Part shown: positions 14,373-38,638 of the stretch, piece by piece
How positions within the stretch are numbered: position 1 is the stretch's first letter
Layout of the letters: every line of letters starts with the position of its first letter
Source: Ornithinimicrobium sp.
GTDB lineage: Bacteria > Actinomycetota > Actinomycetes > Actinomycetales > Dermatophilaceae
Reading direction: 5' to 3'
NCBI RefSeq assembly: GCF_030537745.1
Contig: NZ_JAUNVI010000027.1
Coordinates: 1 to 42,533 of the forward strand
DNA length: 42,533 nt
The notes under the pieces: generated by a model
Told to the model about the DNA's origin: nothing
Database searches by the model: none
The model's input: only the letters and a program-made list of their open reading frames with translations
Translations under genes and position numbers: made by a program

Positions 14373-16013
14373 TCAGTGCCCCTTGAAGGCCTCCTCCAGC
14401 CACCACGACGCCTCATCCTTGGTGACCTTGGCATGCACGAGCATCGGCCCGGTCGGACCGGCAGCGACCCAGTCGCGGACGGGCGCCAGATCCTCCATGG
14501 AGGTCACCGTGACCGCCGCCATGCCGTAGCCGCGGCCGATCGCGGCGATGTCGGTCGGTGGGAACTGCACGGTGTCCAGGCCGTAGCCGTGGGGGCCGAA
14601 GTGATGCACCTCGGCGCCGTAGGCCTCGTCGTCGTAGACCACGACGAGCATCGGCAGGCCCAGGCGCACGACGGTCTCGAGCTCGCTGGCGCCCATCAGC
14701 GCGCCGCCGTCGCCGAGTGCTGCGACGGGGAGCCGGTCCGGCTGGGCGAGCGCGGCGCCGATCGCGGTGGCCAGGCCGAGCCCGATCGACTGGAAGGCCT
14801 GCGTGAAGCAGAAACCCTGCTCGTCGGGCACCTGCAGGAACATGCTCGGATAGCCCATGAAGTTGCCGGAGTCGACGGCCACGACACGCTCGGTAGGGAG
14901 CAGGTCGTCGAGGGCGATGGACAGCGTGCGCGGATCGATGAGCGCGTCTGTCCCGGTGTCTTCATAGCCCACGTCGCGCCAGCGCAGCTCCTTGTCCAGA
15001 CGGTCCCGCAGCTGTGGGCTCCGGTATGCGGTGCGGCGCTCATCGAGGGCGTCGCACGCGGCGAGAGCGGTCCGCGTGACGTCGCCGACGACCCCGAAGG
15101 TGAGCTCGCGGTGGACGCCGATCGCGTCGGCGGTGTCATCGACCTGGACGACGATCGCGTCGTCAGCGATCAGCCTCCCGTGTCGCATGGTCCACATGTT
15201 GAGGGCGCAGCCCCAGCCGACGATGAGGTCGGCGCCGTGGACCAGCTCGGCGGTCAGTGGTGAGGAGAAGCCGCCGGAGATGTCGAGCTGCCAGGGGTCG
15301 TCGTGGAAGAGTCCCTTGGCGACCGCAGAGGTGGCCAGCAGGGCACCCGCCGTCTCGCCCAGCTCTCGGAGCGCGTCTCGGGCGGCGTGCGACCGGCCGC
15401 CTCGTCCGGCCACAAAGACGGGTCGTCGTGCGTTGCGCAGTGCGGCGACGAGCCGCTCGAGGTCCTCGGCCGACGGCTCGACCGGGCTGGGGGCCGGTGG
15501 CAGGGCCGCGCCATCGAGAGCGCCCTCGGGCACCTCTTCCTCCTGCACGTGCAGCGGCAGGTTGAGCACCACGCTGCGCCGTCCGTGCACCGCCTCGGCG
15601 ACTGCGGCCACCGTCTGGGCAACCGCCTCAGCGCCGGAGGTGATCCGGTGCGGCACGGCGCCGACAGCCCGCGACATCGCCTCCTGGTCCACGAAGAAGT
15701 TGGACCGCGGCTCCGTCACCTCCGCAGCGACCACGATCAGCGGGGTCCGGCTCTTGGCCGCCTCGGCCAGGCCGGTCAGCGTGTTGGTGAAGCCACAGCC
15801 TTGATGCACCGTGACGGCGGCGGGTCGCCCCGAGGTGCGGGCGTAGCCGTCAGCGGCGGTGGTCCCGCCGCCCTCGTGACGGGTCGCGACGAAGCGCGCC
15901 CCGGCGTCGGCCATGGCATTGGTGACATGGAAGTTGCCCGAACCGACGACGCCAAAGACGTGGTCGACACCGCAGGCGACGAGCGCCCGACCGACAGCCT
16001 CGGCGACGAACAC
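14373..16013 (-). CDS. TPP-dependent decarboxylase-like enzyme, isatinate decarboxylase candidate
   Basis: 546 residues, GTG start, 3 bases after the isatin-hydrolase-like gene. It has the three-domain layout of acetolactate synthase/benzoylformate decarboxylase enzymes: N-terminal PYR domain with the activating Glu47 in RHEGGG, a central domain, and the C-terminal PP domain with GDGG at about 434. The second part of the TPP motif, usually NN after about 25 residues, is YDDEAYG here, so Asp replaces Asn. Tight pairing with a cyclase-family isatin hydrolase matches the known auxin route in Bradyrhizobium, where isatin is hydrolysed to isatinate and a TPP-dependent enzyme decarboxylates it toward anthranilate. 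Alternatives are benzoylformate decarboxylase or a cyclohexanedione-hydrolase-like ring cleaver. Confidence 0.8.
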   Translation of the reverse strand: MFVAEAVGRALVACGVDHVFGVVGSGNFHVTNAMADAGARFVATRHEGGGTTAADGYARTSGRPAAVTVHQGCGFTNTLTGLAEAAKSRTPLIVVAAEVTEPRSNFFVDQEAMSRAVGAVPHRITSGAEAVAQTVAAVAEAVHGRRSVVLNLPLHVQEEEVPEGALDGAALPPAPSPVEPSAEDLERLVAALRNARRPVFVAGRGGRSHAARDALRELGETAGALLATSAVAKGLFHDDPWQLDISGGFSSPLTAELVHGADLIVGWGCALNMWTMRHGRLIADDAIVVQVDDTADAIGVHRELTFGVVGDVTRTALAACDALDERRTAYRSPQLRDRLDKELRWRDVGYEDTGTDALIDPRTLSIALDDLLPTERVVAVDSGNFMGYPSMFLQVPDEQGFCFTQAFQSIGLGLATAIGAALAQPDRLPVAALGDGGALMGASELETVVRLGLPMLVVVYDDEAYGAEVHHFGPHGYGLDTVQFPPTDIAAIGRGYGMAAVTVTSMEDLAPVRDWVAAGPTGPMLVHAKVTKDEASWWLEEAFKGH

Positions 16014-16016
16014 GGC

Positions 16017-16787
16017 TCAGCGCTCGATGAGAGCGACCACGCGCACGGGTGAGCCCGAGCCGTCGACGATCTTCAGCGGAGAGGCCAGGACCATCGCCCC
16101 GGCCGCAGGCAGTTGGTCGAGGTTCTGCAGCTGGGCCAGGCCGTACTTGCCGGCGCCGAGGAGCATGGAGTGGCACGGGAAAGCGGGGTCGAAGGAGTGG
16201 GCAGCGCCAGCATCGGTCCCCACGGTCTCCACGCCGATGCCGATGAGGTCGCTCTCCTGCGCGACCCAGCGGGCGCACTCGACGGACATGCCCGGGCTGG
16301 TCGGGCCGGTCTGCGTGTTGTTGATCATGTCCTCTTGGGTGGTGCGGGCGGACCATCCGGTGCGGCACAGGAGCCAGCCGCCGCTGGGCAGCGCGCCGTG
16401 CTCCTCCTCCCACTCCTGGAGGTGCTCCCGCTCGATGAGGAAGTTGGGGTCGGCCGCCACCTTGTCGGTGACGTCGAGGACGGCAGCAGGCCGGACGAAG
16501 ACGCCCGCCGGGACCTTGGAGATGTCGTCGAGGTCCTTGCCGGTCACCCAGTGGATCGGGGCGTCAAAGTGGGTGCCGGTGTGCTCACCGGTGCGGAAGT
16601 TGTTCCAGTACCACCCCGGGCCGCGGTCGTCGTAGCGGCTGATCTCCTCCAGCTGGAACTGCGCGGTCTGACCGAACTCGGGCGGCAGCTCCAGGAGAGG
16701 GGTCTGCGAGGACAACGGAGCAGTGAGGTCGATGACCTCGATGCTGCCGTCGCGCAGCGCCTCGGCAAGCTGGGTGAGGATAGACAT
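16017..16787 (-). CDS. Cyclase-family metal-dependent hydrolase, isatin hydrolase-like
   Basis: 256 residues, the typical length for this family. It carries the metal signature HTGTHFDAPIHW: His69, His73 and Asp75 as metal ligands, His79 as candidate catalytic base. The preceding WYWNNF places aromatic residues (Trp59, Trp61) where isatin hydrolase holds its flat substrate. A further conserved His lies in FPCHSMLLGAGKYGLAQL. The fold also includes kynurenine formamidase (KynB), but no kyn genes are nearby, while a TPP decarboxylase follows 3 bases downstream and anthranilate-CoA genes lie in the same island. It would open isatin to isatinate. ATG 16787 has GGAGG 5 bases upstream and a PaaX-type promoter before it. 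Confidence 0.78.
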   Translation of the reverse strand: MSILTQLAEALRDGSIEVIDLTAPLSSQTPLLELPPEFGQTAQFQLEEISRYDDRGPGWYWNNFRTGEHTGTHFDAPIHWVTGKDLDDISKVPAGVFVRPAAVLDVTDKVAADPNFLIEREHLQEWEEEHGALPSGGWLLCRTGWSARTTQEDMINNTQTGPTSPGMSVECARWVAQESDLIGIGVETVGTDAGAAHSFDPAFPCHSMLLGAGKYGLAQLQNLDQLPAAGAMVLASPLKIVDGSGSPVRVVALIER

Positions 16788-16822
16788 GAATACCTCCGAT
16801 AGGGCGGGTCGCGGTTGACCTC

Positions 16823-16913: not shown

Positions 16914-17711
16914 TTAGCGCCAGGGGCTGAAGTCCGGTGCTCGCTTCTCGGCAAAGGCGTTGGCGCCTTCTTTGGCCTCGTCCGACTCCACGAACAGGTC
17001 CAGCCCCGCGAAGGCGATATTGCCCAGGCCCTGCATGTGGTCGGAGTCGGCGTTGAAGCTGGCCTTGAGGAACCGCAGCGCGGTGGGTGAGAGAGCAGAG
17101 ATCTTGCGGGCGTACTCTCGCGCCTTGTCCATCAGCTCCGCCGCCGGGACCACGTCGTTGACCAGGCCCCACCGCTCGGCGGTCTGCGCGTCATACAGGT
17201 CGAGCAGGAACCAGATCTGCCGTGCTCGCTTCTCGCCGACCACCCGAGCCAGGTAGGCGGAACCGAAGCCAGCGTCGAAGGAGCCGACCCGTGGTCCGCT
17301 CTGCCCGAAGCGCGCCGTGTCGGCCGCGATCGACAGGTCGCACAGGACGTGCAGCACGTGGCCGCCGCCGGCCGCGACGCCGTTGACGGCCGCGATGACC
17401 GGCTTGGGCATGTCGCGCATCGCCTGGTGCAGCTGCTGGATCTGGAAGATCCCCCATTCGGTCTGGCCGTAGCTGCCCGTCTCAGCCCGCTCCTTGACGT
17501 CGCCACCGGCGCAGAAAGCCTTCTCGCCGGCCCCGGTCAGGATGACGCACGCGACCTGGCGATCGGCCCACGCGTGCTTGAAGGCGGCGAGGAGCTCGTC
17601 GACGGTGCGTCCTCGGAAGGAGTTGTAGCGTTCGGGGCGGTTGATGGTCACCACCGCCCAGCTCTCCTGCACCTCGTAGGTGATGTCGGTGAAATCTTCG
17701 GGCCTGATCAT
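16914..17711 (-). CDS. Crotonase family MenB/BadI-like hydrolase, ring-cleavage candidate
   Basis: 265 residues. This crotonase-fold CoA enzyme resembles MenB (dihydroxynaphthoyl-CoA synthase) and BadI (2-ketocyclohexanecarboxyl-CoA hydrolase) rather than ordinary enoyl-CoA hydratases. Visible matches are NRPERYNSFRGRTVDEL, the oxyanion loops CAGGD and NGVAAGGGHVL, the GSFDAGFGS active-site segment (143-151), LARVVGEKRARQIW and the C-terminal EGANAFAEKRAPDF. No menaquinone genes adjoin it, while the island needs an enzyme opening a 2-ketocyclohexane-carboxyl-CoA ring, so the BadI-like role is preferred by inference. ATG 17711 has AAGGAG upstream. It is divergent from the SDR-RidA pair, sharing a perfect palindromic operator. 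Confidence 0.82.
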   Translation of the reverse strand: MIRPEDFTDITYEVQESWAVVTINRPERYNSFRGRTVDELLAAFKHAWADRQVACVILTGAGEKAFCAGGDVKERAETGSYGQTEWGIFQIQQLHQAMRDMPKPVIAAVNGVAAGGGHVLHVLCDLSIAADTARFGQSGPRVGSFDAGFGSAYLARVVGEKRARQIWFLLDLYDAQTAERWGLVNDVVPAAELMDKAREYARKISALSPTALRFLKASFNADSDHMQGLGNIAFAGLDLFVESDEAKEGANAFAEKRAPDFSPWR

Positions 17712-17778: not shown

Positions 17779-18546
17779 GTGTCGACACGTGTTTCGCAGC
17801 CGGTCGCCCTGGTCACCGGGGCAGGTAGAGGGATCGGTGCTGGGGCCGCCATAGCGCTCAGCGAGGCGGGGTATGCGGTCGCGCTCACCGCTCGCAGCCG
17901 CGAGCAGCTGGAGGAGACAGCGGCGCGCTGCCCGGGACCCACCCTGGTCCTGCCGGCCGACATGCTCGCCGCCGGCTCCGTCGACGAGCTGCTCGACCTG
18001 GTCGAACGGGAGTGGGCCGCGCCGGAGGTCGTCGTCGCCAACGCCGGCGCCGGGATCTCAGCGTCGGTGGAGAAGACGACCGACGAGCAGTGGGCGCGGA
18101 TGCTGGACCTCAACCTCACCGCACCCTTTCGGCTGCTGCGCCGGACCATCCCGGCGATGAAGTCCGCCGGCCACGGTCGCATCGTCGTCGTGGCCTCAGT
18201 GGCAGCCAAGCTCGGCGAGCCTTATATCTCCGCTTACACGGCGAGCAAGCACGGGGTGCTCGGGTTGGTCCGTTCAGCGGCGATGGAGCTCGCGCGGACC
18301 GGTGTCACCGTCAACGCGGTCTGCCCCGGCTACGTCGACACCCCGATGACCGAGGCGACCCTGCAGGGCATCGTCGACAAGACCGGCCGCAGCCTCTCCG
18401 AGGCCCGCGCGGCGCTCGAGGCCAAGCAGCCCATCAACCGGCTCATCACGGTCGAGGAGGTCGTCGAGGCCATTGTGACCTGCGTGCGCAACGGTGGCAT
18501 GAGTGGACAAGGAATCAATGTCGACGGAGGAGGGCTCCAGTCATGA
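17779..18546 (+). CDS. SDR family oxidoreductase, 3-hydroxyacyl-CoA/ring-alcohol dehydrogenase candidate
   Basis: 255 residues, GTG start; upstream codons in the same frame run through the operator, so they are excluded. Classical SDR: cofactor loop TGAGRGIGAG, NAGAG, catalytic Ser in VVVASVAAK, and YTASK with Tyr and Lys. C-terminal VDGGGLQS is standard. It overlaps the RidA-family gene by 4 bases (ATGA), so the two are co-translated. In the proposed pathway it could reduce the 5-oxo group of the dearomatised ring or act in later beta-oxidation. Which SDR does which step cannot be decided from sequence. Confidence 0.85.
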   Translation: MSTRVSQPVALVTGAGRGIGAGAAIALSEAGYAVALTARSREQLEETAARCPGPTLVLPADMLAAGSVDELLDLVEREWAAPEVVVANAGAGISASVEKTTDEQWARMLDLNLTAPFRLLRRTIPAMKSAGHGRIVVVASVAAKLGEPYISAYTASKHGVLGLVRSAAMELARTGVTVNAVCPGYVDTPMTEATLQGIVDKTGRSLSEARAALEAKQPINRLITVEEVVEAIVTCVRNGGMSGQGINVDGGGLQS

Positions 18547-18941
18547 TCGAACGCGTCAACCCGCCCGAGCTGGGCGAGCCACGAGGCTTCAGCAACGCCG
18601 TCGTCGGGACCGGGACGGTGGTCTTCCTGGCCGGGCAGACCGCGCTGAACCGCGAGGGGGTGATCGTCGGCGAGACCGTCGTCGAGCAGTTCGAGAAGGC
18701 GCTGAGCAACCTGCTGGCCTCGCTGGCCGCCGCTGGCGGCACGCCTGCCGACCTGGCCAGCCTGACGGTCTACATCGTGGACATGGACGACTACAAGGCC
18801 AACGGCCGCGAGATCGGTCGGGTCTGGAAGCGGCTCATGGGCACCGACTATCCGGCGATGGCCGGCATTGGTGTCTCCCGTCTCTGGGACGTCGAGGCGC
18901 TGGTCGAGGTCCAGGGTATGGCGGTCCTGCCCTCCGCCTGA
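18543..18941 (+). CDS. RidA/YjgF-family protein lacking the catalytic Arg, enamine deaminase candidate
   Basis: 132 residues with the full RidA (YER057c/UK114) fold pattern: FSNAVVGTGTVVFLAGQTALN, a central helix FEKALSNLLASLAAAGG, LTVYIVDMDDY, and a C-terminal VEVQGMAVLP strand. Canonical RidA hydrolyses enamines/imines using an Arg in the PAR motif near the C-terminus. Here that position is Met106 (YPAMAGIG). It thus belongs with the Arg-lacking Rid relatives, whose chemistry differs or is unknown. The neighbours supply a striking candidate substrate, the 2-amino-cyclohexene-carboxyl-CoA enamine made by 2-aminobenzoyl-CoA monooxygenase/reductase. That assignment is inference. Confidence 0.85.
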   Translation: MIERVNPPELGEPRGFSNAVVGTGTVVFLAGQTALNREGVIVGETVVEQFEKALSNLLASLAAAGGTPADLASLTVYIVDMDDYKANGREIGRVWKRLMGTDYPAMAGIGVSRLWDVEALVEVQGMAVLPSA

Positions 18942-18963: not shown

Positions 18964-19563
18964 CTAGCCGGTCGCCAGGTGGTGACTGGGTGGCTCGTCC
19001 AGGCCGTCGTTGGCCTGCCGTGCCAGCACATAGAGCAGGTCGGAGACCCTGTTGAGGTAGACCAACGGCCAGCGGTGGGCATCGGCGCCCTCTGCCGTCC
19101 CGGTCAGGGGATCCGGTCCGGCCCCCGGACCACGGCATCCGACGAGTTGGCGCTCGGCGCGTCGCACGATGGTGCGCCCCAGGTCGATGGCCGCTGAGCC
19201 GAGGCTCTCGCCCGGCACCACGAAGACCGGTCGGAGCGGTTGCTCGGCGACCAAGGTGTCGATGAGGGCCTCGATGTCGGCGACCATGCCGCTGGTCACC
19301 AGCGAGACACCGGCGACCAGCTGATCGCGGGCCCGCGGGTTGCTGGCGATGTCGGCGCCCACCACGAAGAGCTCCCGCTGCACGCGCAGGATCTGCTCAC
19401 GCAACTGCCGGTGCGACAGGCTGGCCCGGGCCAGGCCGAGCGCTGCCACCGCCTCATCGAGGGTGCCGACGACCGCGACGAGGTCATCGGCCTTGGAGAC
19501 CCGTCCGCCGAACAGCAGCCCGGTGCTGCCATCGTCCCCCAGTCGGGTGTAGACCCGGCTCAT
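18964..19563 (-). CDS. PduO-type cob(I)alamin adenosyltransferase
   Basis: 199 residues. It transfers the 5'-deoxyadenosyl group from ATP to cob(I)alamin, making coenzyme B12. Signature elements are VYTRLGDDGSTGLLFGG at the N-terminus (ATP binding), RAERQLV in the middle-to-C-terminal region and LNRVSDLLYVLARQAN. ATG 19563 overlaps the previous gene's stop by 4 bases. It is last in a minus-strand trio with the reductase and DsbA-like genes. Its presence matches the adenosylcobalamin-type mutase encoded at the end of the island. The reductase before it could reduce cobalamin, a guess from position. Confidence 0.88.
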   Translation of the reverse strand: MSRVYTRLGDDGSTGLLFGGRVSKADDLVAVVGTLDEAVAALGLARASLSHRQLREQILRVQRELFVVGADIASNPRARDQLVAGVSLVTSGMVADIEALIDTLVAEQPLRPVFVVPGESLGSAAIDLGRTIVRRAERQLVGCRGPGAGPDPLTGTAEGADAHRWPLVYLNRVSDLLYVLARQANDGLDEPPSHHLATG

Positions 19564-20366
19564 CGGGCACGCTCCGTCGGCTCCGGCGCGGCCGTGCCCC
19601 AGGGCGTGGGGTCGGCGAAGAACTCCTCGCCGTGCACGGCCGCCCGAGCTGCGCCCAGGTCGAGCGCGGCCCGGGAGGCATCCGAGACGAAGTCCCCGGG
19701 GCCTGCGGTGAAGACTTCCCATCCCGACAGGTCCGGCTCCGGCAGGAGGCTCGCGAGGCATTCGGGCAGTCGTGGCGCACGCGGCTCGCCACGGGGCCGG
19801 GTCAGGAGGTAGCGGTAGTCGAAGCGGGCGTGCTGACTGGCCAGCCGCAGGTAGCGCGCCCGGTCGATGACGTCCGCCCGGGTCCGCCCGGAGAAGATCA
19901 GGGTGACCGGCCGGCTGCCGGTCAGCAGCTCCTGGGCCAGCGCCGCCAGCGGCGCTAAGCCCGACCCGGCGGCCAGCAGGAGGACCGGACCGTCGTGCGC
20001 GTCCGAGAGGGTGAAGGTGCCGAACGGGCCGCTGACCGCGACCTCGTCGCCGGGCCGCAGGTCGTCGTGCGCCCACGTGCTGGTCCGGCCCGCCCCGTAA
20101 CGGGTGATCAGTAGACGCAACCACCGGTCTTGCCGCGGTGCGTTGGCGATGGAGTAGGAGCGCTCGGGCAGCCGGTGGTCGACGTCGCTGAGCAGGAGGT
20201 ACTGTCCCGCGACGTGCTGCAGGCTCGCCGCGGCCGGCGCCAGCACGAGGTCGCGGACGACGGGCGTGGCGCTGTGGGCGGCGATCACCCGGTAGGAGAC
20301 CTCCTCCCACGAGTCGGCCCAGACAGAGAGGCTCTCTCGGGGAGAGGCGTCTGCCGGACTGCTCAT
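19560..20366 (-). CDS. FAD/NAD(P)-binding oxidoreductase, ferredoxin reductase-like
   Basis: 268 residues. It has the ferredoxin-NADP reductase-like two-domain layout: FAD domain with RSYSIANAP (the RxYS motif) and VAVSGPFGTF, then the NAD(P) domain starting LLLAAGSGLAPLAALAQEL. No 2Fe-2S domain is attached, so it needs a separate partner; the 7Fe ferredoxin two genes away is one possibility. ATG 20366 shares its A with the stop of the DsbA-like gene (TGATG), indicating translational coupling. It could feed electrons to ferredoxin or reduce cobalamin for the adenosyltransferase encoded next. Both roles are inferred from neighbours. Confidence 0.8.
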   Translation of the reverse strand: MSSPADASPRESLSVWADSWEEVSYRVIAAHSATPVVRDLVLAPAAASLQHVAGQYLLLSDVDHRLPERSYSIANAPRQDRWLRLLITRYGAGRTSTWAHDDLRPGDEVAVSGPFGTFTLSDAHDGPVLLLAAGSGLAPLAALAQELLTGSRPVTLIFSGRTRADVIDRARYLRLASQHARFDYRYLLTRPRGEPRAPRLPECLASLLPEPDLSGWEVFTAGPGDFVSDASRAALDLGAARAAVHGEEFFADPTPWGTAAPEPTERAR

Positions 20367-21001: not shown

Positions 21002-21055
21002 GGTGTCCTCTGGGCCGGTCACCCGAGTGGCGGGCGAGAGATGGGAGTGTCGGCC

Positions 21056-21091: not shown

Positions 21092-21127
21092 AGTCCGGAC
21101 GCCAACCCTTCCCAGGAGATCAGCACC

Positions 21128-21472
21128 ATGACCTACGTGATCGCCCAGCCGTGCGTCGATGTGATGGACCGCTCGTGCGTCGAGGAGTGTCCGGTCGACT
21201 GCATCTACGAGGGCGAGCGATCGCTATACATCCACCCCGATGAGTGCGTGGACTGCGGTGCCTGCGAGCCGGTGTGCCCCGTGGAGGCGATCTACTACGA
21301 GGACGACCTGCCCGAGGAGTTCGAGCCCTACCTCAAGGACAACGCGGACTTCTTCTTCCAGACTCTCCCCGGCCGGGACGAGCCCATCGACTCCCCCGGG
21401 GGAGCGGCCAAAATCGGGGCCTACCACGTCGACACCGTCCTGGTCGCCGCGGTGGCGCCGCAGGTCCCCTAG
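21128..21472 (+). CDS. fdxA: 7Fe ferredoxin (3Fe-4S/4Fe-4S), FdxA type
   Basis: 114 residues, the usual length for actinobacterial FdxA. It starts MTYVIAQPCVDVMDRSCVEECPVDCIYEG, giving the 3Fe-4S ligands, followed by the complete 4Fe-4S motif CVDCGACEPVCP. The acidic C-terminal tail with DNADFFFQTLPG is typical. ATG 21128 has CAGGAGATC upstream. It is a small cytosolic electron carrier, possibly serving monooxygenase or cobalamin reduction in the island through the neighbouring reductase. Its promoter shares an element with the SufR-like regulator gene. Confidence 0.93.
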   Translation: MTYVIAQPCVDVMDRSCVEECPVDCIYEGERSLYIHPDECVDCGACEPVCPVEAIYYEDDLPEEFEPYLKDNADFFFQTLPGRDEPIDSPGGAAKIGAYHVDTVLVAAVAPQVP

Positions 21473-21478
21473 CGCTCG

Positions 21479-22333: not shown

Positions 22334-22387
22334 TTCGGACGAAGGCGGCGCGATGCCGCGCCCGTGGACCCCAGGAAGGCCCTTGCG

Positions 22388-23569: not shown

Positions 23570-23600
23570 GGCGACCGATGACGCACCCTGACCGGGCCTC

Positions 23601-29723: not shown

Positions 29724-30127
29724 CCTCGGTGTCGTCGGCGCGGGTGGTCGACTGGATCGACACCGACGCCGCCGGCCACTATCACCACTCGGCCGTGATC
29801 CGTTGGGTGGAGGCGGCCGAGAGTGTGCTGCACGAAGATCTGGGGCTGCTCGAACTCTTCGGCACGGTGCCGCGGGTCCGGTATGAGGTGGACTACCTCG
29901 ACCGGCTCTGGTTCCGGGAGGAGGTAGTCACGTCGCTGTGGGTGGAGAAAGTCGGTGGCTCGTCGCTGACCTATGCCTTCGAGGTCGTCGGGCCGCGGGG
30001 TCCGGCCGCGCGGGGACGGATGATCTGCGTCAACATCGGCGGCCGGTCCGGCGACGTGCCGGAGGACGGCACTTCCTCCCCTGCGACAGCATGGCCGGAC
30101 GAGGTGCGTGCCCTGCTGAGCTCCTAG
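29720..30127 (+). CDS. Hotdog-fold acyl-CoA thioesterase, 4-hydroxybenzoyl-CoA thioesterase type
   Basis: 135 residues, GTG start overlapping the ligase stop. The signature VDWIDTDAAGHYHHSAVIRWVE is the 4HBT pattern, with the catalytic Asp in DTDAAG. YEVDYLDRLWFREEVVT follows as usual. Next to an aryl-CoA ligase it probably releases stalled or misformed aryl-CoA esters, recovering CoA. Similar ligase/thioesterase pairing occurs in other aryl-CoA pathways. Confidence 0.85.
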   Translation: MTSVSSARVVDWIDTDAAGHYHHSAVIRWVEAAESVLHEDLGLLELFGTVPRVRYEVDYLDRLWFREEVVTSLWVEKVGGSSLTYAFEVVGPRGPAARGRMICVNIGGRSGDVPEDGTSSPATAWPDEVRALLSS

Positions 30128-30921: not shown

Positions 30922-30941
30922 GTCATCCTCATTCCGTCTTC

Positions 30942-30971
30942 TTGACGACCGTCTGAAAGACAACATAGTCT
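30942..30971. promoter_or_regulatory. PaaX-type operator 4, divergent SDR / monooxygenase-reductase promoter
   Basis: TGACG-AC-CGTCT (30943-30954). Rightward: -35 TTGACG (30942-30947), 18 bp, -10 TAGTCT (30966-30971). Leftward: -10 TATGTT (30967-30962), then 7 bases to the operator. This geometry is identical to the paaX/ligase region. Confidence 0.72.
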
Positions 30972-31007: not shown

Positions 31008-33377
31008 ATGCGCATCGCGATCATCGGCGGAGGTCCGGGCGGGCTCTACTTCGCCGCCCTCACCAAGGCACTAGACCCTACGCACGAGATCACGGTGTGG
31101 GAGCGCAACGCCCCCGACGACACCTTTGGCTTCGGCGTCGTCTTCTCCGACGAGACGCTCGGCGGCATCGAGCACGCCGACCCCGCGATCTTCGAGTCGA
31201 TGCAGCGTGAGTTTGCCCGGTGGGACGACATCGACGTCCACCTCGACGGTCAGGTCTTCACCTCCGGGGGGCACGGCTTCGCCGCGATGACCCGCAAGCG
31301 ACTCTTGGAGATCCTCCAGGAGCGCTGCCGCGAAGTGGGTGTCGTGATGCACTTTCGCACCGACGCGCCTGACGTGGAGGAGCTCTCGGCGGACTACGAC
31401 CTAGTGCTGGCCGCCGACGGCCTCAACTCGATCGTCCGTCGCCGTTTCGCCGACACCTTCCAGCCCACTCTCGACGTGCGTCAGTGCAAGTACATGTGGC
31501 TGGGCACGACCAAGGTCTTCGAGGCTTTCAAGTTCTACATCCTCAAGACTCCCTACGGCGTGATGCAGGTCCACGGCTACCCCTACGACGCGACCGGCTC
31601 GACCTTCATCCTGGAGATGCACGAGGACGTATGGCGAGCGGCCGGACTTGACCACGCCGAGGGCCGGGCGTGGGTCCCCGGAGAGTCGGACGAGGAGTCC
31701 ATCACGTTTATCCGCGACCTCTGCGCTGACATCTTCGAGGGCGAGGAGGTGATGGCCAACAACTCGCGCTGGATCTCCTTCACCACCATCCGCAACCAGA
31801 CCTGGCGGCACGACAACGTCGTCATCCTCGGCGACGCTGCCCATACCGCCCACTTTTCCATCGGCTCCGGCACCAAGCTGGCGATGGAGGATGCCCTCGC
31901 GCTGGCCGCCTGCCTGCACGAGCACGACGACGTCGACGCCGCGCTCACGGCCTACGAGACGGAGCGCAAGCCCGTCGTGGAGTCGACGCAGCGCGCGGCG
32001 CAGGCCTCGCTGGAGTGGTTTGAGAACCTCGGGCAGTACACCGACCAGGCACCCGAGGAGTTCGCCTTCAACATCATGACGCGCAGCCGTCGCGTCACCC
32101 ATGACAACCTTCGCGTCCGGGACCCGGAGTTCGTGGAGCAGATCGATGAATGGTTTGCCTCCGCCACCCCCGGCAGCCAGCCCCAGACGCCACCGATGTT
32201 CCAGCCGTTCCGCCTCGGTGACCTCGAGCTCAACAACCGCGTCGTCGTCTCGCCGATGGACATGTATGTCGCCAACGGCGACGGCATGCCCACGGACTTC
32301 CACCTGGTGCACCTGGGCGGAAAAGCCATGGGCGGGGCCGGGCTGGTGATGACCGAGATGGTCTGCGTCTCGCCCGAGGGACGGATCACGCCCGGCTGCA
32401 CCGGCATCTGGACCGACGAGCAGGCGGAGGCCTGGAAGCACATCGTCGACGAGGTGCATCAACTCAGCGACGCCAAGATCGGCATCCAGGTCGGCCACTC
32501 CGGGCGCAAGGGCTCGACCAAGCTGATGTGGGAGGGCATCGACCAACCGCTGGAGGAAGACAACTGGGAGGTCGTGGCGCCCTCGCCGCTGGCTTATCTG
32601 GACGGGGTCAACCAGGTGCCGCGCGAGCTGACCCTGGAGGATCTGGAGCAGATCACGCAGGACTTCGTGGACTCCGCCCGCCGCGGTGCGGAGGCCGGCT
32701 TCGACGTGCTTGAACTGCACTGCGCGCACGGTTACCTGCTCTCCTCCTTCATCTCCCCGGTGACCAACCACCGAACGGATGAATACGGAGGCGGCGACGG
32801 TGCCGGTCTGGCCGGACGACTGCGCTATCCCCTGGAGGTCTTCGCCGCGATGCGGGCGGTCTGGCCGCAGGAGCGCCCGATGACCGTGCGCATCTCGGCG
32901 ACCGACTGGGTGGACGGTGGCATCGACGTAGAGGACGCCGTGCAGATCGCGGCGGCCTTCAAGGACGCCGGCGCGGCCGCGATCGACGTCTCCTCCGGCC
33001 AGGTGACGCCGGCGGAGACGCCCGCCTTCGGGCGGTCCTACCAGACCCCGTTCTCCGACGCGATCCGCAACAGAGTCGGGATCCCGACCATCGCGGTCGG
33101 CGTCATCTCCTCCTGGGACGACGTCAACTCCATCGTGCTGGCCGGGCGCGCCGACCTGTGCGCCATCGGCCGTGCGCACCTCTACGACCCGATGTGGACC
33201 CTCCACGCCGCGGTCGAGCAGGACTATGACGGGCCCGGCGCGGTCTGGCCGCTGCCGTGGCGCGCGGGCCGACGCAAGCCGCAGGCGGGGCGCAGCGATG
33301 AGGCCAGGCCGCGGCTGCAGTTGGTGCGTGAGGGCGAGGGCGGCACCAGGCACGCTCGATGGAGGCCGGGCAAGTGA
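31008..33377 (+). CDS. Fused FAD monooxygenase/Old Yellow Enzyme: 2-aminobenzoyl-CoA monooxygenase/reductase type
   Basis: 789 residues, two enzymes in one chain. Residues 1 to about 385 are a group A flavin monooxygenase: FAD motif IIGGGPGGLYFAALTK and GDAAHTAHFSIGSGTKLAMEDA. From about 397 (MFQPFRLGDLELNNRVVVSP) an Old Yellow Enzyme domain follows, with GIQVGHSGRKGST, LELHCAHGYLLSSFISP and DEYGG. This architecture is that of Azoarcus 2-aminobenzoyl-CoA monooxygenase/reductase, which hydroxylates and then hydrogenates the ring to a 2-amino-5-oxocyclohexene-carboxyl-CoA. Databases often call it bifunctional salicylyl-CoA 5-hydroxylase/oxidoreductase. Co-location with a RidA-family gene and isatin-type genes favours anthraniloyl-CoA. 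ATG 31008 has AAGGAG upstream. First gene of a four-gene operon. Confidence 0.9.
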   Translation: MRIAIIGGGPGGLYFAALTKALDPTHEITVWERNAPDDTFGFGVVFSDETLGGIEHADPAIFESMQREFARWDDIDVHLDGQVFTSGGHGFAAMTRKRLLEILQERCREVGVVMHFRTDAPDVEELSADYDLVLAADGLNSIVRRRFADTFQPTLDVRQCKYMWLGTTKVFEAFKFYILKTPYGVMQVHGYPYDATGSTFILEMHEDVWRAAGLDHAEGRAWVPGESDEESITFIRDLCADIFEGEEVMANNSRWISFTTIRNQTWRHDNVVILGDAAHTAHFSIGSGTKLAMEDALALAACLHEHDDVDAALTAYETERKPVVESTQRAAQASLEWFENLGQYTDQAPEEFAFNIMTRSRRVTHDNLRVRDPEFVEQIDEWFASATPGSQPQTPPMFQPFRLGDLELNNRVVVSPMDMYVANGDGMPTDFHLVHLGGKAMGGAGLVMTEMVCVSPEGRITPGCTGIWTDEQAEAWKHIVDEVHQLSDAKIGIQVGHSGRKGSTKLMWEGIDQPLEEDNWEVVAPSPLAYLDGVNQVPRELTLEDLEQITQDFVDSARRGAEAGFDVLELHCAHGYLLSSFISPVTNHRTDEYGGGDGAGLAGRLRYPLEVFAAMRAVWPQERPMTVRISATDWVDGGIDVEDAVQIAAAFKDAGAAAIDVSSGQVTPAETPAFGRSYQTPFSDAIRNRVGIPTIAVGVISSWDDVNSIVLAGRADLCAIGRAHLYDPMWTLHAAVEQDYDGPGAVWPLPWRAGRRKPQAGRSDEARPRLQLVREGEGGTRHARWRPGK

Positions 33378-35557
33378 GCTCTGGCGTGCGCGAACGCCCC
33401 AGCCTGCGACCCCTCTGGGACGCCCGCGGCATCGCGGTGGTCGGTGCCAGCGACCGGCCCGGCGCCGTCGGACGGTTGCCGATCCAGTTCCTCCAGCGCT
33501 ACGGCTACGCGGGCGGCATCTACCCCGTGCGACCCGACGGCGCCCCCGTCGCCGGGCTCACGTCATACCCCTCGATCGGCGCCGTTCCCGAGCCGGTCGA
33601 CCTCGCCATGGTGATGGTCGCTGCCGACAAGGTGATCGGGGCGGTGCGCGAGGCGGCAGCCGCAGGAGTGCCGGTCGTCATCGTGTGCTCCAGCGGTTTC
33701 GCCGAGACCGGTGAGGTTGGCCAGGTGCTGCAGGAGGAGCTGGTCGCCACGGCGCACGAGCTCGGTGTCCGTGTGCTCGGCCCCAACTGCATCGGCACCG
33801 TCGGCACCGCGACCGGCCAGGTCAGCTCCTTCTCGCCGTTGTTCTCCGGCGCGAGCACGCAGCTGGTGCCCGGCGGGCTCGGCTTCGTCAGCCAGAGCGG
33901 CGCGCTCGGCTATGGCGCCGTCTCCCTCGCGTTCGAGCGCGGCCTCGGCCTCGGCTGGGTAGTCAACACCGGCAACGAGGCAGACATCGGCGCTACCGAG
34001 GTGATGGCCGCCCTCGCGGAGGAACCTGGCTGCACCGGGATCCTGGGGTATGCGGAGTCGCTCGGAGGGTTGGACTCGCTGGCTGCGCTGGCCGCCCGGG
34101 GGATCCCGGTCGCGATGCTCAAGGCCGGCCGCTCCGACGCCGGTGCGCGGGCGGCTGCCTCGCACACGGGTGCGCTGGCGGCCGGCGACAAGGTCGTGGA
34201 CGCGGCGCTGCGCCGTGCCGGGGTGGTGCGGGTCGACGACATCGAGGAGCTCCTGGACGTCGGTGAGGTCATGGACCTGGTGCCGGGCGTGCGGGGCAAG
34301 ACGGTGCGGACGGTGGCCATCGTCACCACGTCGGGTGGCTCCGGCATCCTGGCCGCCGACGCGGTCGAGGCGCACGACCGCCACCTGCAGCTGGCGACCC
34401 TTTCCAGCGAGACGCTCGCCGCCCTAGACGAGATCGTGCCGGCCTACGGTGCGACCGCCAACCCGGTCGACGTCACCGCGTCGGTGATGAGCAACCCAGA
34501 CCTCTTCGACCAGGCGCTGACCGCGATCGCCGGCGACGCTGGTGTCGACGCGATCGTCGCGTGCTTCTGCGTGCTCGCCGGCAAAGACGTCGATGATGTC
34601 GTGGAGGCGCTGGCGCGGGTTCGTGCGGCGAGCGGAGTGCCGGTCATCGTGGTGCGCACGGGCGCCGACCACCTGGCACCCGAGGCCGCGGCGACCATGC
34701 GGGCCGCTGGTCTGCCGGTCTTCACGACGCCGGTGCGCGGCGTCCGGGCGCTTGCCGCCCTGGCGCAGATGGTGGAGCACGGGAAGCGGCAGCGGCCCGA
34801 CGGCCCGTCCGGTGTGGCAAGCCCGCCCGTCCGCTGTGGGGGGGGCGACCGGCCGGGGGGGCAGGGCGGACCGTCCGGTGGGGTGGGGGCGGGGATGGAT
34901 GAGCGTGAGCTCAAGACGGCCCTGGCCGCCGCGGGACTTCCGGTGCCGGTGGGGCGGATCGCCACCGATCGCGACGATGCCGTCACCGCCGTCGCCGAGG
35001 CCGGCGGGCGGGCTGTCGCCAAGGCGGTCGTGCCCGGTCTGCTGCACAAGTCCGATGCCGGCGGGGTGGTGCTGAATGTGACCGTCGAGGACGCGGCCGA
35101 GGTTTTCGACCGGCTGGCCGCGCTGGGTGGGCAGGTGCTGGTCGAAGAGATGGTGCCCGGCGGCGTCGAGGCACTGGTGGGCAGTGCCGACACCCCCCTG
35201 GGTCGGATCGTCAGCGTCGGCGTCGGAGGCATCCTCACCGAGGTGATCGCTGACGTCGCCCTGCGCCTCCTGCCCGTCGACCGGGCGGACGTCGAGGAGA
35301 TGATCGAGGAGACCCGCCTGAGCCAGCTTCTCGCTGGTGTCCGGGGCCAGGCGCCGGCTGATCACGATGCTCTGGTCGACACCGTCCTGGCCGTCGCCGA
35401 GCTCACCGCGACCCTCCCGGCCGGTGCCGAGCTCGACCTCAACCCCGTGACGGTCCTCGCCCAGGGAAAGGGTGCCCGGATCCTGGACGCTGCGCTCGCC
35501 CTGCCGCAGCTCGAGCAGCCCGAGCACGACATACCCGACCAGATTGCAGGAGACTGA
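33374..35557 (+). CDS. NDP-forming acyl-CoA synthetase (fused alpha-beta)
   Basis: 727 residues from GTG 33374, which has GGAGG 8 bases upstream and overlaps the previous stop; an ATG at 33359 is also in frame. Order: CoA-binding domain (WDARGIAVVGASDRPGAVG), ligase-CoA domain with the phospho-His candidate in SHTGALAAGD, then an ATP-grasp domain starting near MDERELKTALAAAGLPVP. It makes acyl-CoA from acid, CoA and ATP (ADP-forming), like acetate or pimelate-type synthetases. The glycine/proline-rich interdomain linker (about residues 475-505) is encoded by a copy of the dispersed repeat. A dicarboxylic acid released by ring opening is a fitting substrate, by inference. Confidence 0.87.
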   Translation: MSSGVRERPSLRPLWDARGIAVVGASDRPGAVGRLPIQFLQRYGYAGGIYPVRPDGAPVAGLTSYPSIGAVPEPVDLAMVMVAADKVIGAVREAAAAGVPVVIVCSSGFAETGEVGQVLQEELVATAHELGVRVLGPNCIGTVGTATGQVSSFSPLFSGASTQLVPGGLGFVSQSGALGYGAVSLAFERGLGLGWVVNTGNEADIGATEVMAALAEEPGCTGILGYAESLGGLDSLAALAARGIPVAMLKAGRSDAGARAAASHTGALAAGDKVVDAALRRAGVVRVDDIEELLDVGEVMDLVPGVRGKTVRTVAIVTTSGGSGILAADAVEAHDRHLQLATLSSETLAALDEIVPAYGATANPVDVTASVMSNPDLFDQALTAIAGDAGVDAIVACFCVLAGKDVDDVVEALARVRAASGVPVIVVRTGADHLAPEAAATMRAAGLPVFTTPVRGVRALAALAQMVEHGKRQRPDGPSGVASPPVRCGGGDRPGGQGGPSGGVGAGMDERELKTALAAAGLPVPVGRIATDRDDAVTAVAEAGGRAVAKAVVPGLLHKSDAGGVVLNVTVEDAAEVFDRLAALGGQVLVEEMVPGGVEALVGSADTPLGRIVSVGVGGILTEVIADVALRLLPVDRADVEEMIEETRLSQLLAGVRGQAPADHDALVDTVLAVAELTATLPAGAELDLNPVTVLAQGKGARILDAALALPQLEQPEHDIPDQIAGD
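34798..34885 (+). repeat. Dispersed repeat copy 3, inside a coding region
   Basis: GGCCCGTCCGGTGTGGCAAG, then CGCCCGTCCGCTGTGG, then further GACCG/GTCCGGTG elements. This is a diverged, extended copy of the repeat at 10205 and 27072, read through in frame as a Gly/Pro/Arg-rich linker between the two halves of the acyl-CoA synthetase. Confidence 0.5.
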
Positions 35558-35561
35558 CCTC

Positions 35562-37106
35562 ATGGACATCGGCACGCTCGTCACCCGCGCCGGCCACCGC
35601 TTCGGCGACCGGGTAGCCCTGGAGGGCGGCTCGGGCGAGCCCGGGCAACGGCGCACCTTCGCCGAGCTCGCGGACCGCGTCACCCGGATCGCCAGCGGCC
35701 TGCTCGCGCTCGGCCTCGAGCCCGGAGACCGGGTGCTGGACCTGCAGAGCAACAGCACGACGTATGTGGAGACTGACCTGGCCATCCGCGCGGCCGGTCT
35801 GGTGCGGGTAGCCCTCAACTACCGGCTGCACCGCAGCGACTGGGAGCGGATCGCCACCGACTCCGGGGCCCGCGGACTGATCTACCACGAAAAGTTCGCC
35901 GACGACATCAGCTCCGTCCGCGAGCAGGTGCCGCACGTCGTCGTGGTGGGTGAGGGCCCCGAGACCACGCTCGACGGGCTCGCCGCCGGTGCGACCGTCG
36001 GCCCGCTGCCGGTGCGCGCGCCCGACGACCTGTGCGGGCTGCACTACTCCTCCGGCACCACCGGCCATCCCAAGGGCGCCCAGCGGACCCACCGCAACTG
36101 GTTCGCCTCCGTCGTCAACATGACCCAGGATGTGCTGGGTGGCCCTCCCGGCCCTGACGACTGCTACGTCCACGCCGGCCCCGTGACGCACACCTCCGGG
36201 TTGTTCATCCTGCCCTTCCTCGTCGCGGGCGCCCGGCAGATCGTGCTGCCTTCCTGGGACCCGCAGACCTTCCTCGAGTCGGTCGGCCAGCAGGGCGCGA
36301 CCCACACCGCGCTGGTGCCCACCATGGTCGCCCGACTGCTGTCCGCAGGGGTGACCCGCGAGGACCTCGCTGACCTGCAGATGCTCGGCTACGCCGGTGC
36401 TCCCATGCCACCGGAGCAAATGCGCCGCGCGCACGACCAGCTCACCCCCCACCTGGTGCAGTACTACGGCCTGGTCGAGGCGATCCCGCCGGTCACCGTC
36501 CTGGACGCCGCCGACCACGAGCGGGGACTCACCGACGAGCCCGACCTGCTGACCAGCGCTGGGCGACCCGCACTCGGCGTCGAGCTCGCGGTCGTCGACG
36601 AGGACGGCCAGCGGGTCGCGCCGGGCGAGATCGGTGAGGTCATCACCCGTGGCGACCACGTCATGGCCGGCTACTACAACGCGGCCGAGCGCACCGACCT
36701 GTCCAAGGCGGTCGTCGACGGGTGGCTGCACACCGGTGACCTCGGGCGGCTCTCCGAGCGAGGTCACCTCTGGCTCATCGACCGCGTGGGGGACATGATC
36801 ATCTCGGGTGGCTACAACATCTACCCCCGAGAGGTCGAGGAGGTCATCGCCGAGATGTCGGACGTCGGGCAGGTCGCGGTGGTCGGGGTGCAGGACGCCG
36901 ACTGGGGGCAGCGGGTCGTCGCGTTCGTCACGCCACGAGCCGGCACCCAGGTGACGCAGGACCAGGTCCGCGCCCACTGCGGGAGCCGGATGGCCTCCTA
37001 CAAGAAACCCAAGGACGTCCACGTGCTCTCCGAGTTTCCGCTCAACTCCACCGGCAAGATCTCCAAGAAGGAGCTACGCGCCCAGCTGCAGGAGGGACGG
37101 CCATGA
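35562..37106 (+). CDS. AMP-forming acyl-CoA synthetase (ANL superfamily)
   Basis: 514 residues. Motifs: YSSGTTGHPKGAQRTHRN (P-loop, about residue 163), YYGLVEAIPPVTV, TGDLGRLSERGHLWLIDRVGDMIISGGYNIYPREVEE and the catalytic Lys in NSTGKISKKEL. FadD-like ligase of unknown chain specificity. ATG 35562 follows AGGAGACTG, 4 bases after the previous stop; further upstream frame is inside the preceding gene. Overlaps the mutase gene by 4 bases. Together with the NDP-forming synthetase it gives the operon two acid-activating enzymes, suggesting the pathway passes through free acids. Confidence 0.88.
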   Translation: MDIGTLVTRAGHRFGDRVALEGGSGEPGQRRTFAELADRVTRIASGLLALGLEPGDRVLDLQSNSTTYVETDLAIRAAGLVRVALNYRLHRSDWERIATDSGARGLIYHEKFADDISSVREQVPHVVVVGEGPETTLDGLAAGATVGPLPVRAPDDLCGLHYSSGTTGHPKGAQRTHRNWFASVVNMTQDVLGGPPGPDDCYVHAGPVTHTSGLFILPFLVAGARQIVLPSWDPQTFLESVGQQGATHTALVPTMVARLLSAGVTREDLADLQMLGYAGAPMPPEQMRRAHDQLTPHLVQYYGLVEAIPPVTVLDAADHERGLTDEPDLLTSAGRPALGVELAVVDEDGQRVAPGEIGEVITRGDHVMAGYYNAAERTDLSKAVVDGWLHTGDLGRLSERGHLWLIDRVGDMIISGGYNIYPREVEEVIAEMSDVGQVAVVGVQDADWGQRVVAFVTPRAGTQVTQDQVRAHCGSRMASYKKPKDVHVLSEFPLNSTGKISKKELRAQLQEGRP

Positions 37107-38638
37107 GCTGGGAGGACCCGCAGTTGCGGGTGGACTACGCCCCGGAAGAGGCAGAGCACCCCGGTGAGTACCCCTACACCCGCGGCGTCAGCGCCGAGCC
37201 CAAGGTCTGGATCATGGGGCAGTACGCCGGCTTCGGCACCGCCAAGGAGTCCAACGCCCGCTTCCGCTCGCTGCTCGACGCCGGGGTCACGGGCTTCTCG
37301 GTAGCGATGGACCTGCCGAGCCAGATGGGGATCGACTCCGACGACCCACGCGCGCTCGGCGAGGTGGGCCGGGTGGGGGTGGCTATCGATTCGCTGGCCG
37401 ACATCGAGGTGCTGATGGAGGGCATACCCCTGGAGGAGCTGTCGCAGGTCCGGACCACCGCTAACTCGATCGGCTATCTGTGGGCGGCGCTCTTCGTCGC
37501 GCTCGCTGAGAAGCGCGGCGTGCACCCCAACGAGTTCGGGATGTTCATCCAGAACGACGTGCTCAAGGAGTTCATCGCCCGCGGGACCCAGATCTTCCCG
37601 CCGGAAGCGTCGCTGCGGCTCTCGGTCGACTGCATCGAGTATGTCGCCCGCGAGACGCCGAGCTGGGTGCCGCTGGCGATGAGCGGCTACCACATCCGCG
37701 AGTCTGGATCGTCGGCGACGCAGGAAATCGCTTTCACCTTCGCCAACGCGCGCGCCTACCTCGACGAGTGCGTGCGGCGAGGCATCGACATCGACCAGGT
37801 CGCGCCGACGCTGTTCACCTTCTTGGCGATCACCAAGGACGTGCTGCCGGAGGTGGCAAAGTTCCGTGCCGCTCGTCGCGTGTGGGCAAAGCTGATGCGA
37901 GACACCTACGGCACCACGGACCCACGCAGCCAGCAGCTGCGGATCTTCGCCTTCACTGCGGGCTCCACCCTGACCGCGCAGCAGCCGCTCAACAACGTGA
38001 TCCGCGCTTCCGTCGAGGCGACGACCGCGGCGCTCGCGGGGGTGCAGACGATGCACGTCTCTGCCTACGACGAGGCGCTCGGCGTCCCGACCGAGCATGC
38101 CGCGACCCTGGCCCTGCGCACGCAGCAGGTGGTCGCTTTCGAGACCGGGCTCACCACCACCCTGGACCCGCTCGCCGGCTCGTATGCCGTCGAGGCGCTG
38201 ACCGACGAGCTCGAGGCCTCGATCTGGTCGCTGATGGAGGACATCGAGGAGCGTGGCGGGGCGCTGGAGGGGATCAGCTCCGGCCGGTTCGCGAGGGACC
38301 TGTCCGAAGCGGCCTACCGGCTCTCCCAGGCGATCGAGTCGGGAGAGAAGGTCGTGGTCGGAGTCAACCGCTTCCCCGCTCGGACCGAACCGTTGGAGGT
38401 CTTCTCTATCGACCCGGCGACCGAGCAGGGCCAGGCGCAGTCGGTGCGTCGGCTGCGCCAGACCCGCGACCAGAGCGCCGTCGACGCTGCCCTGGAGGCG
38501 CTGCGCACCGATGTGCGTGAGGGCCGGTCGGTGATGCCCGCGACGATCGAGGCGGTCAAGGCCTACGCGACCCTGGGTGAGGTGGTCGCCGTGCTCCAGG
38601 ATCAGTTCGGCACCTGGCGTCCCAGCGCGGAGTTCTAG
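37103..38638 (+). CDS. Adenosylcobalamin-dependent acyl-CoA mutase, large subunit only
   Basis: 511 residues: the TIM-barrel half of the methylmalonyl-CoA mutase family, without the B12-binding domain, so a separate small subunit is needed; none is in the window. Tyr41 (QYAGF) and Arg160 (EFIARGTQIFPP) match mutase Tyr89 and Arg207, which favour a carboxylated acyl-CoA over isobutyryl- or 2-hydroxyisobutyryl-CoA types (Phe/Ile and Gln there). Gln150 and His197 in SGYHIRESGSS are kept. But the loop before Tyr41 is about 3 residues shorter and reads WIMGQY rather than WTIRQY, losing the substrate-contacting Thr85 and Arg87. The substrate may thus be an unusual dicarboxylyl-CoA. Alignment is from memory of family sequences. 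Confidence 0.85.
   Translation: MSWEDPQLRVDYAPEEAEHPGEYPYTRGVSAEPKVWIMGQYAGFGTAKESNARFRSLLDAGVTGFSVAMDLPSQMGIDSDDPRALGEVGRVGVAIDSLADIEVLMEGIPLEELSQVRTTANSIGYLWAALFVALAEKRGVHPNEFGMFIQNDVLKEFIARGTQIFPPEASLRLSVDCIEYVARETPSWVPLAMSGYHIRESGSSATQEIAFTFANARAYLDECVRRGIDIDQVAPTLFTFLAITKDVLPEVAKFRAARRVWAKLMRDTYGTTDPRSQQLRIFAFTAGSTLTAQQPLNNVIRASVEATTAALAGVQTMHVSAYDEALGVPTEHAATLALRTQQVVAFETGLTTTLDPLAGSYAVEALTDELEASIWSLMEDIEERGGALEGISSGRFARDLSEAAYRLSQAIESGEKVVVGVNRFPARTEPLEVFSIDPATEQGQAQSVRRLRQTRDQSAVDAALEALRTDVREGRSVMPATIEAVKAYATLGEVVAVLQDQFGTWRPSAEF

Follow-up and report, generated by a model that had tools for sequence, protein, structure and literature searches.

Comparative evidence for a B12-dependent acyl-CoA mutase module in a predicted isatin/anthranilate gene cluster of an Ornithinimicrobium-like actinobacterium

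How aromatic rings opened by way of 2-aminobenzoyl-coenzyme A (CoA) are broken down further is addressed here with a gene island from Ornithinimicrobium sp. The island lies on NZ_JAUNVI010000027.1, contig C87 of a 3.03-Mb assembly that is 93.9% complete, and all 42,533 nucleotides of that contig were analyzed (the window). It is probably a catabolic cluster for isatin and anthranilate in an Ornithinimicrobium-like actinobacterium, and breakdown probably runs via CoA compounds. Two of its genes (Table 1) are the main subject: ABM, a fused 2-aminobenzoyl-CoA monooxygenase/reductase, and MUT, the large subunit of a B12-dependent acyl-CoA mutase that resembles methylmalonyl-CoA mutase (MCM). Comparison with other genomes supports assigning the mutase module to the ABM pathway, as a replacement for two other lower modules. 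Tentatively, we propose that MUT is a new 4-oxoacyl-CoA mutase that would convert 4-oxopimelyl-CoA to 2-methyl-3-oxoadipyl-CoA, such that a C7 skeleton is split without β-oxidation. Handles beginning with G, C, and L denote genomes, contigs, and loci.

ABM loci carry one of three lower modules. Among 396 genomes of the order searched, 30, counting the window's own, have the full fusion. For 28 of the other 29, flanks of at most 20 kb per side were fetched; in the remaining one, G016, ABM is on a 4-kb contig. The 52 loci compared were this order set, eight ABM loci of the family that lack MUT, ten MUT-bearing genomes of the family, locus L124, and three plasmid loci; 8 of the 36 family genomes with ABM were left untyped. 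Loci were typed by markers at at least 40% identity, those of G016 and G504 across separate contigs. Type A (28 loci) is marked by a cupin and a thioesterase, with a FAH-family gene in 27; type B (9 loci) is marked by an acyl-CoA dehydrogenase and ECH2; and type C (14 loci), by MUT. One locus, on the 7.9-kb contig of G533, was unclassified, and none of the 52 carried markers of two types. The original prediction had proposed a synteny search in other genomes. Among the loci compared here, ECH, the BadI-like hydrolase, is at at least 40% identity confined to type C, as are SDR2, the NDP-forming ligase, and LIG2. Thiolases at 47 to 48% identity also occur in five type A or B loci. G491, from the window's own genus, shares its SDR1, RidA, importer, PaaX, LIG1, thioesterase, and ABM genes with the window but has an acyl-CoA dehydrogenase and ECH2 where the window has the mutase set.

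On the ABM tree, types B and C are intermixed. Among 59 ABM proteins (28 of type A, 9 of type B, and 22 of type C), type C takes seven changes, five of them forced by well-supported branches, and type B takes five, four of them forced. The three labels taken jointly need 7 changes, compared to a shuffled mean of 25. Eight of the type C rows were labeled by the presence of MUT in the genome; on the ABM contigs of G940, G943, G944, G945, G947, G948, and G950, SDR2 adjoins ABM.

MUT is also tied to ABM by gene order and by distribution. ABM and the NDP-ligase gene overlap, 4 bases separate the start of LIG2 from the NDP-ligase stop, and the LIG2 stop lies in an overlap with MUT; the order ABM, NDP-ligase, LIG2, MUT is kept in relatives. 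LIG2 is directly 5′ of MUT in 20 of the 21 loci from the per-species scan below, which are all those whose contig holds the MUT start. The thiolase gene THIO is 2.7 kb beyond MUT on the opposite strand, and in relatives it adjoins MUT or ECH. A SelO-type protein (39725-41191) separates MUT and THIO in the window, and in G509, G499, and G506, THIO closely follows MUT. An ECH-THIO-SDR1-RidA block is present in G368, G432, G939, G940, G943, G944, G945, and G949, and the L124 row reads SDR2-ABM-ECH-THIO-SDR1-RidA-NDPlig-LIG2-MUT, and 3 kb further lies a gene for isatin hydrolase. MUT (E 1e-180 or better) was found in 3 of the 396 order genomes, all 3 among the 30 with the full fused ABM (Fisher p 4e-4), and in 13 of 186 family genomes, 12 of which belong to the 36 with ABM (Fisher p 6e-9). 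Neither test corrects for relatedness, and a single genus supplies 9 of the 13 family MUT genomes. The MUT clade is rare, as a phylum sample of 396 genomes held it only once, in the window's own genome. A scan with one genome per species gave 21 MUT loci, all but one labeled as actinobacteria, and in the genomes for 19 of them, ABM was found in 17 and ECH at at least 67% identity in 15. We note that L112, which is labeled Acidobacteria (isolate ATN4), probably wrongly, has the cluster at 77 to 91% identity, and that L122, L124, and L125, from actinobacterial assemblies of 1.5 to 1.9 Mb, retain ABM, ECH, and the mutase. Finally, a paralogous THIO-LIG2-MUT set in L118 (Ornithinimicrobium cavernae, 7126-13812) lies by a PaaX gene, a class III CoA transferase, and a tripartite tricarboxylate transporter. 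Successive action of ligase, mutase, and thiolase would lead one to expect such a set in another acid-catabolism context.

The sequence of MUT argues for a substrate that differs from those of MCM, HCM (2-hydroxyisobutyryl-CoA mutase), and ICM. MUT matches PF01642 (E 3e-174; 580.8 bits against a cutoff of 22.1) and is 44% identical both to the MCM-like protein of the same genome and to HcmA; identity to the 20 clade members aligned is 65 to 91%. The clade has support of 100/100 and sits on a long branch. Residues are cited in what we take to be the Propionibacterium shermanii MCM numbering, with the roles that we presume for Tyr89, Arg207, His244, His328, Gln330, and Arg87. The first three positions are retained in all 21 clade rows read. 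In MUT and the clade members compared, however, Phe stands at both His328 and Gln330 and Gly stands at Arg87, and the PYPTMY segment has a three-residue gap. Phe-Ala-Phe with Met-Gly-Gln-Tyr is found in 22 of 22 clade members, whereas His-x-Gln is found in seven of seven references and Phe-Ala-Phe in none. These changes point away from the substrates of those three enzymes and do not indicate which other one is used.

The whole keto route from isatin or anthranilate to propionyl-CoA and succinyl-CoA via MUT is, in our estimate, plausible rather than probable, and its substrates and products after ABM are conjectural. Isatin hydrolase and the thiamine pyrophosphate (TPP)-dependent enzyme would take isatin through isatinate to anthranilate, and LIG1 would activate anthranilate to 2-aminobenzoyl-CoA. 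ABM would dearomatize this ester to 2-amino-5-oxocyclohexenecarboxyl-CoA by analogy with the Azoarcus monooxygenase/reductase, whose product is so given in the accessible part of PMC4539516. Loss of ammonia, perhaps with the Rid protein assisting, would yield 2,5-dioxocyclohexanecarboxyl-CoA. In the available portion of PMC3534580, the CoA ester of C7H8O4 was found only in anthranilate-grown cells of Arthrobacter Rue61a, a type A organism; because C7H8O4 is the formula of the dione acid, we count this for the dione as an intermediate. ECH would hydrolyze the ring C1-C2 bond to give 4-oxopimelyl-CoA, and MUT would move the thioester carbonyl from C2 to C3, as MCM does on succinyl-CoA. Thiolases do not cut 4-oxoacyl-CoAs. 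THIO, as a putative 3-oxoadipyl-CoA-type thiolase, would then release propionyl-CoA and succinyl-CoA from 2-methyl-3-oxoadipyl-CoA, and LIG2 and the NDP-ligase would reactivate 4-oxopimelate after CoA loss. Every component named in the original prediction is present by Pfam, NCBIfam, and solved-structure matches. Its route from isatin to a dearomatized CoA ester fits the enzymes, as does its C7 dicarboxylyl-CoA after BadI-like ring opening. It stops at the C7 diacid and omits two further ligases, the B12 mutase, and the thiolase.

The individual lower enzymes agree with this route to differing degrees. ECH scores below both NCBIfam cutoffs, with 311 bits on menB (cutoff, 342.7) and 282.6 on badI (cutoff, 467.6), and the genome has a separate MenB on C45 with 416 bits, above the cutoff. 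Like BadI, the 2-ketocyclohexanecarboxyl-CoA hydrolase, ECH belongs by score to the MenB/BadI crotonase branch and would perform a similar C-C hydrolysis of a cyclic 2-oxoacyl-CoA; unlike BadI, it would act on a dione. THIO likewise falls below cutoff with PcaF-type models ranked first (PRK09050, 429 bits; pcaF, 424 bits against 597). Its best solved match is an unspecified thiolase, 7vtr, and the β-ketoadipyl-CoA thiolase 6pca is third. A Rid gene is present in 28 of 28 type A loci, 9 of 9 type B loci, and 8 of 14 type C loci, several of the last being cut or split. We take Arg105 to be the catalytic residue of Escherichia coli RidA. None of the 49 Rid matches (one gene counted twice) has Arg at this position, and the window's protein has Met. 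Because the catalytic Arg is absent from all the matches compared, RidA-type deamination, as originally predicted, is unsupported.

Isatin genes look like an optional upper module. The cyclase CYC is nearer to isatin hydrolases (isatin hydrolase A 5nnb, E 4e-81; 4j0n, E 4e-66) than to kynurenine formamidases (4cob, E 2e-7), and isatin hydrolysis itself is predicted. The TPP enzyme reached the cutoff of no NCBIfam model among the 25 listed. As the original prediction proposed, the isatin module is joined to ABM, and this holds for loci of all three types: CYC and the TPP gene are both near ABM in the window, G506, G488, G940, G943, and G944 (type C); in G042, G101, G114, G208, G218, G251, G314, and G319 (type A); and in G438 and a Deinococcus psychrotolerans plasmid (type B). 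CYC is found near ABM without the TPP gene in G541, G947, G949 (L124), and G951, and the TPP gene is found without CYC in G155 and G261. Neither was seen in many of the ABM stretches read, including those of G368, G499, and G509. L084 (G000:C86) encodes a further TPP enzyme whose protein sequence is 53% identical to that of the window's enzyme; the 20 kb read there has no other island genes save weak ABC ATPase matches.

The original prediction saw no isatin-forming oxygenase, but a candidate block, with a putative role, lies just upstream at 10340-14314. Homologs of its SDR0 (66 to 69%) and of its amine-oxidase-like protein (51 to 61%) are near CYC/TPP in G438, G101, G218, G251, and G114, and homologs of its FMO-like protein (57 to 58%) accompany CYC/TPP in G438 and G101. 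A search of the FMO-like protein for the FxGxxxHxxx fingerprint did not find it. A luciferase-like monooxygenase and an FMN reductase (7221-9340) were dropped from the block because neither has a homolog at at least 40% identity in other loci.

Several observations weigh against the mutase reading. G941, which the ABM tree counts as type C, has an ECH2-like gene adjoining ABM on a 5-kb contig; its ABM locus probably resembles type B, with its MUT serving another pathway. G465, of type B, also has a FAH-family gene at 42%. Two of the 19 MUT genomes have no ABM that was found, and in L115, L116, and L118, MUT is without an adjoining ABM. The keto version requires neither SDR1 nor SDR2, it accounts for the further ligases (three CoA ligases in all) only if CoA is assumed to be lost, and the retained Arg and Tyr of MUT would fit a substituted succinyl-CoA equally well. 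The structure model of MUT is shallow and in places too weak to strengthen the residue comparison, with a mean pLDDT of 77.5, a pTM of 0.81, and pLDDT below 50 in segments including residues 20-43, 287-296, and 318-335. Moreover, the window has no match to the B12-binding family PF02310, and those of the genome are on C1, C95, C105, and C114 only. Thus, MUT must borrow a B12 subunit. A 141-amino-acid B12-binding subunit is encoded at L083 (G000:C1:42395-42817), adjoining sucCD-like genes (by eye), at a distance of 14.5 kb from the gene for the MCM-like large subunit; both mutases may share it.

The main alternative to the keto route retains MUT on a hydroxylated substrate: SDR1 would reduce the 5-oxo group, ring opening would give 4-hydroxypimelyl-CoA, MUT would form 2-methyl-3-hydroxyadipyl-CoA, SDR2 would oxidize it, and THIO would cleave the product. 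We consider this unlikely, while granting that it employs both conserved SDRs, of which SDR1 is found in types B and C only and SDR2 in type C only among the loci read. Moreover, 4-hydroxyacyl-CoAs lactonize readily, which would explain the extra ligases, and the NDP-ligase scores on a 4-hydroxybutyrate-CoA ligase model, but far below its cutoff. The paralogous THIO-LIG2-MUT set, however, has no SDR among its genes, and by general chemistry, a radical is less stabilized beside C-OH than beside C=O. That same set apart from ABM in L118, another in L115, and L116, with a BadI-like ECH and no ABM found in the genome, would suit a separate acid cassette of LIG2, MUT, and THIO that is merely co-located with ABM and acts on, for example, a levulinate-like 4-oxo acid or 2-hydroxyisobutyrate. 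Most cassette genomes carry ABM, however, and the gene order is common, such that we find this reading improbable. For 2-hydroxyisobutyrate in particular, the mutase residues that we take to be Ile90 and Gln208 are Tyr and Arg in MUT.

A further rival, in which MUT serves as an extra MCM for propionyl-CoA arising from the pathway, with ordinary β-oxidation degrading the ring, we judge slightly more improbable still. It draws on the PF01642 family and on the retained Tyr89 and Arg207 positions. A large subunit resembling MCM is, however, already encoded elsewhere in the genome, along with an IcmF-like fusion and a B12 subunit; MUT is only 44% identical to that MCM and has the changes at His328, Gln330, Arg87, and PYPTMY described above; and all 14 type C loci linked to ABM lack the acyl-CoA dehydrogenase marker of type B. 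Salicylate as the aromatic substrate is very unlikely. It is suggested by the NCBIfam model PRK08255, named for a bifunctional salicylyl-CoA 5-hydroxylase/oxidoreductase, on which ABM scores 1228.8 against a curated cutoff of 1078 and by which ABM orthologs are annotated. The same name is carried by the fused gene of the Rue61a plasmid pAL1. Linkage to the isatin hydrolase and TPP genes speaks for anthranilate instead, as does LIG1, which ends 1.3 kb upstream of ABM, has the anthranilate-CoA ligase 4wv3 as its best solved match, and is 58% identical to the Rue61a ligase adjoining the Rue61a ABM. According to the accessible part of PMC3534580, the Rue61a ligase, matched by gene order, has anthranilate-CoA ligase activity, and Rue61a did not grow on salicylate and appears to degrade anthranilate solely via the CoA route. 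Least credible, and to us almost negligible, is that MUT is an IaaGH-type (2-aminophenyl)succinyl-CoA mutase feeding 2-aminobenzoyl-CoA from auxin. A mutase upstream of 2-aminobenzoyl-CoA is known in anaerobic auxin degradation from the portions available of PMC8360864 and PMC9613470. That pathway needs IaaF, a decarboxylating acyl-CoA dehydrogenase, and IaaL, a CoA transferase, and the window genes scanned gave no such Pfam match; moreover, MUT replaces the lower module and not the upper one, a distinction drawn from gene context. MCM, HcmA, IcmF, and IaaGH identities for MUT were thus each considered and rejected on residues or context.

Table 1. Genes of the island and the basis on which each was assigned
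Feature	Coordinates	Strand	Basis or remark
SDR0, candidate dioxindole/indole-derivative dehydrogenase (putative role)	10340..11128	+	Pfam adh_short_C2
FMO-like flavoprotein, candidate isatin-forming oxygenase (putative role)	11142..12659	+	PF00743
Amine-oxidase-like flavoprotein, block with SDR0 and FMO-like gene	12656..14314	+	PF01593
TPP-dependent decarboxylase, candidate isatinate decarboxylase (putative role)	14373..16013	-	PF02776/00205/02775
CYC, predicted isatin hydrolase	16017..16787	-	PF04199; best solved match 5nnb
ECH, MenB/BadI-like putative ring hydrolase	16914..17711	-	NCBIfam menB and badI scores
SDR1, common to type B and C clusters	17779..18546	+	Pfam SDR
Rid-family protein	18543..18941	+	PF01042; Met at Arg105 position
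PduO-type cobalamin adenosyltransferase	18964..19563	-	PF01923; TIGR00636 above cutoff
FNR-type flavin/NAD reductase	19560..20366	-	PF00970/PF00175
Ferredoxin, FdxA-like by eye	21128..21472	+	Fer4
Branched-chain-type ABC importer, five genes (binding protein, two permeases, two ATPases)	22364..27071	+	
PaaX-family regulator	27112..27957	-	PF07848/20803/08223
LIG1, predicted 2-aminobenzoate (anthranilate)-CoA ligase, benzoate-type	28023..29723	+	Best solved match 4wv3
4HBT-type thioesterase	29720..30127	+	PF13279
SDR2, divergent to ABM	30151..30966	-	Type C-specific among loci read
ABM, predicted fused 2-aminobenzoyl-CoA monooxygenase/reductase (OYE)	31008..33377	+	PF01494 and PF00724
NDP-forming acyl-CoA ligase	33359..35557	+	PF13380/13607/13549; first ATG within ABM end
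LIG2, AMP-forming acyl-CoA ligase, directly 5′ of mutase	35562..37106	+	PF00501/13193
MUT, MCM-like B12-dependent acyl-CoA mutase large subunit	37103..38638	+	PF01642, E 3e-174
THIO, thiolase, 3-oxoadipyl-CoA thiolase models top-ranked	41301..42515	-	NCBIfam scores

The island is more than a chance grouping, as its gene set is kept together elsewhere: G368 holds ECH, THIO, the SDRs, the Rid gene, the importer, PaaX, the ligases, the thioesterase, ABM, and MUT together at 59 to 81% identity, and sets similar to those of G368 and the window are grouped in further genomes. The five-gene importer is also present in G368, G509, G499, G506, and G488, where it adjoins the Rid gene. Between the two, the window has a block (18964-22159) with the adenosyltransferase, the FNR-type reductase, a DsbA-like protein (by eye), the ferredoxin, and an HTH regulator (by eye). 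That block was not seen between the Rid gene and the importer in the five relatives, and the adenosyltransferase, of which the genome has a second copy on C35, was not relied on as a dedicated partner of MUT. The window has no Rfam element, including a cobalamin riboswitch, at gathering thresholds, and a tRNA search of the window found none.

The upper pathway is known in kind. A CoA ligase followed by a fused monooxygenase/reductase is shared with the aerobic 2-aminobenzoyl-CoA pathway of Azoarcus evansii and Rue61a, and PaaX-type regulators and a Rid protein are shared with pAL1. The lower part differs, however, as it is of the FAH/cupin/thioesterase kind (type A) in Rue61a and is said to use β-oxidation enzymes in Azoarcus (PMC4539516, in its accessible part); the word "mutase" is absent from the main text of the Rue61a paper (PMC3534580). 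Isatin to isatinic acid to anthranilate is chemistry shared with the iad auxin pathway of Variovorax and Bradyrhizobium, and the available part of PMC9613470 has Variovorax convert auxin via isatin to anthranilate. Here, by contrast, the isatin genes accompany ABM, and the upper oxygenases are putative candidates. A review (PMC6221969, seen in part) calls a 2-aminobenzoyl-CoA cluster vital for anthranilate use by an indole-degrading Cupriavidus. Given the precedents of Rue61a, Variovorax, and Cupriavidus, the joining of isatin to 2-aminobenzoyl-CoA is less new than the original prediction held. The 2-hydroxyisobutyryl-CoA mutase cassette (HCL ligase, HcmAB, and MeaH) also has an AMP-ligase adjoining an unfused B12 mutase large subunit, per the accessible portion of PMC7176365, but differs in its pocket residues, in its 44% identity to MUT, and in that the window lacks PF02310. 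Searches of open-licence papers, judged by title and abstract, gave nothing relevant on the proposed intermediates or on a mutase in the ABM pathway, and neither the type C lower route nor the MUT clade was found in them.

Steps after the 2-aminobenzoyl-CoA monooxygenase/reductase are poorly defined in the parts of the literature available to us. For these steps, the comparison made here distinguishes three gene sets that exclude one another, and one of the three is linked to radical B12 mutases of a separate clade. Should the keto route be true, the few acyl-CoA mutase reactions that are known would gain a further substrate class, and γ-oxo acids would have a route that is easily tested. The keto route would also explain why a B12-dependent aromatic pathway is kept in some actinobacterial assemblies of 1.5 to 1.9 Mb, one of them labeled Lake Pavin.

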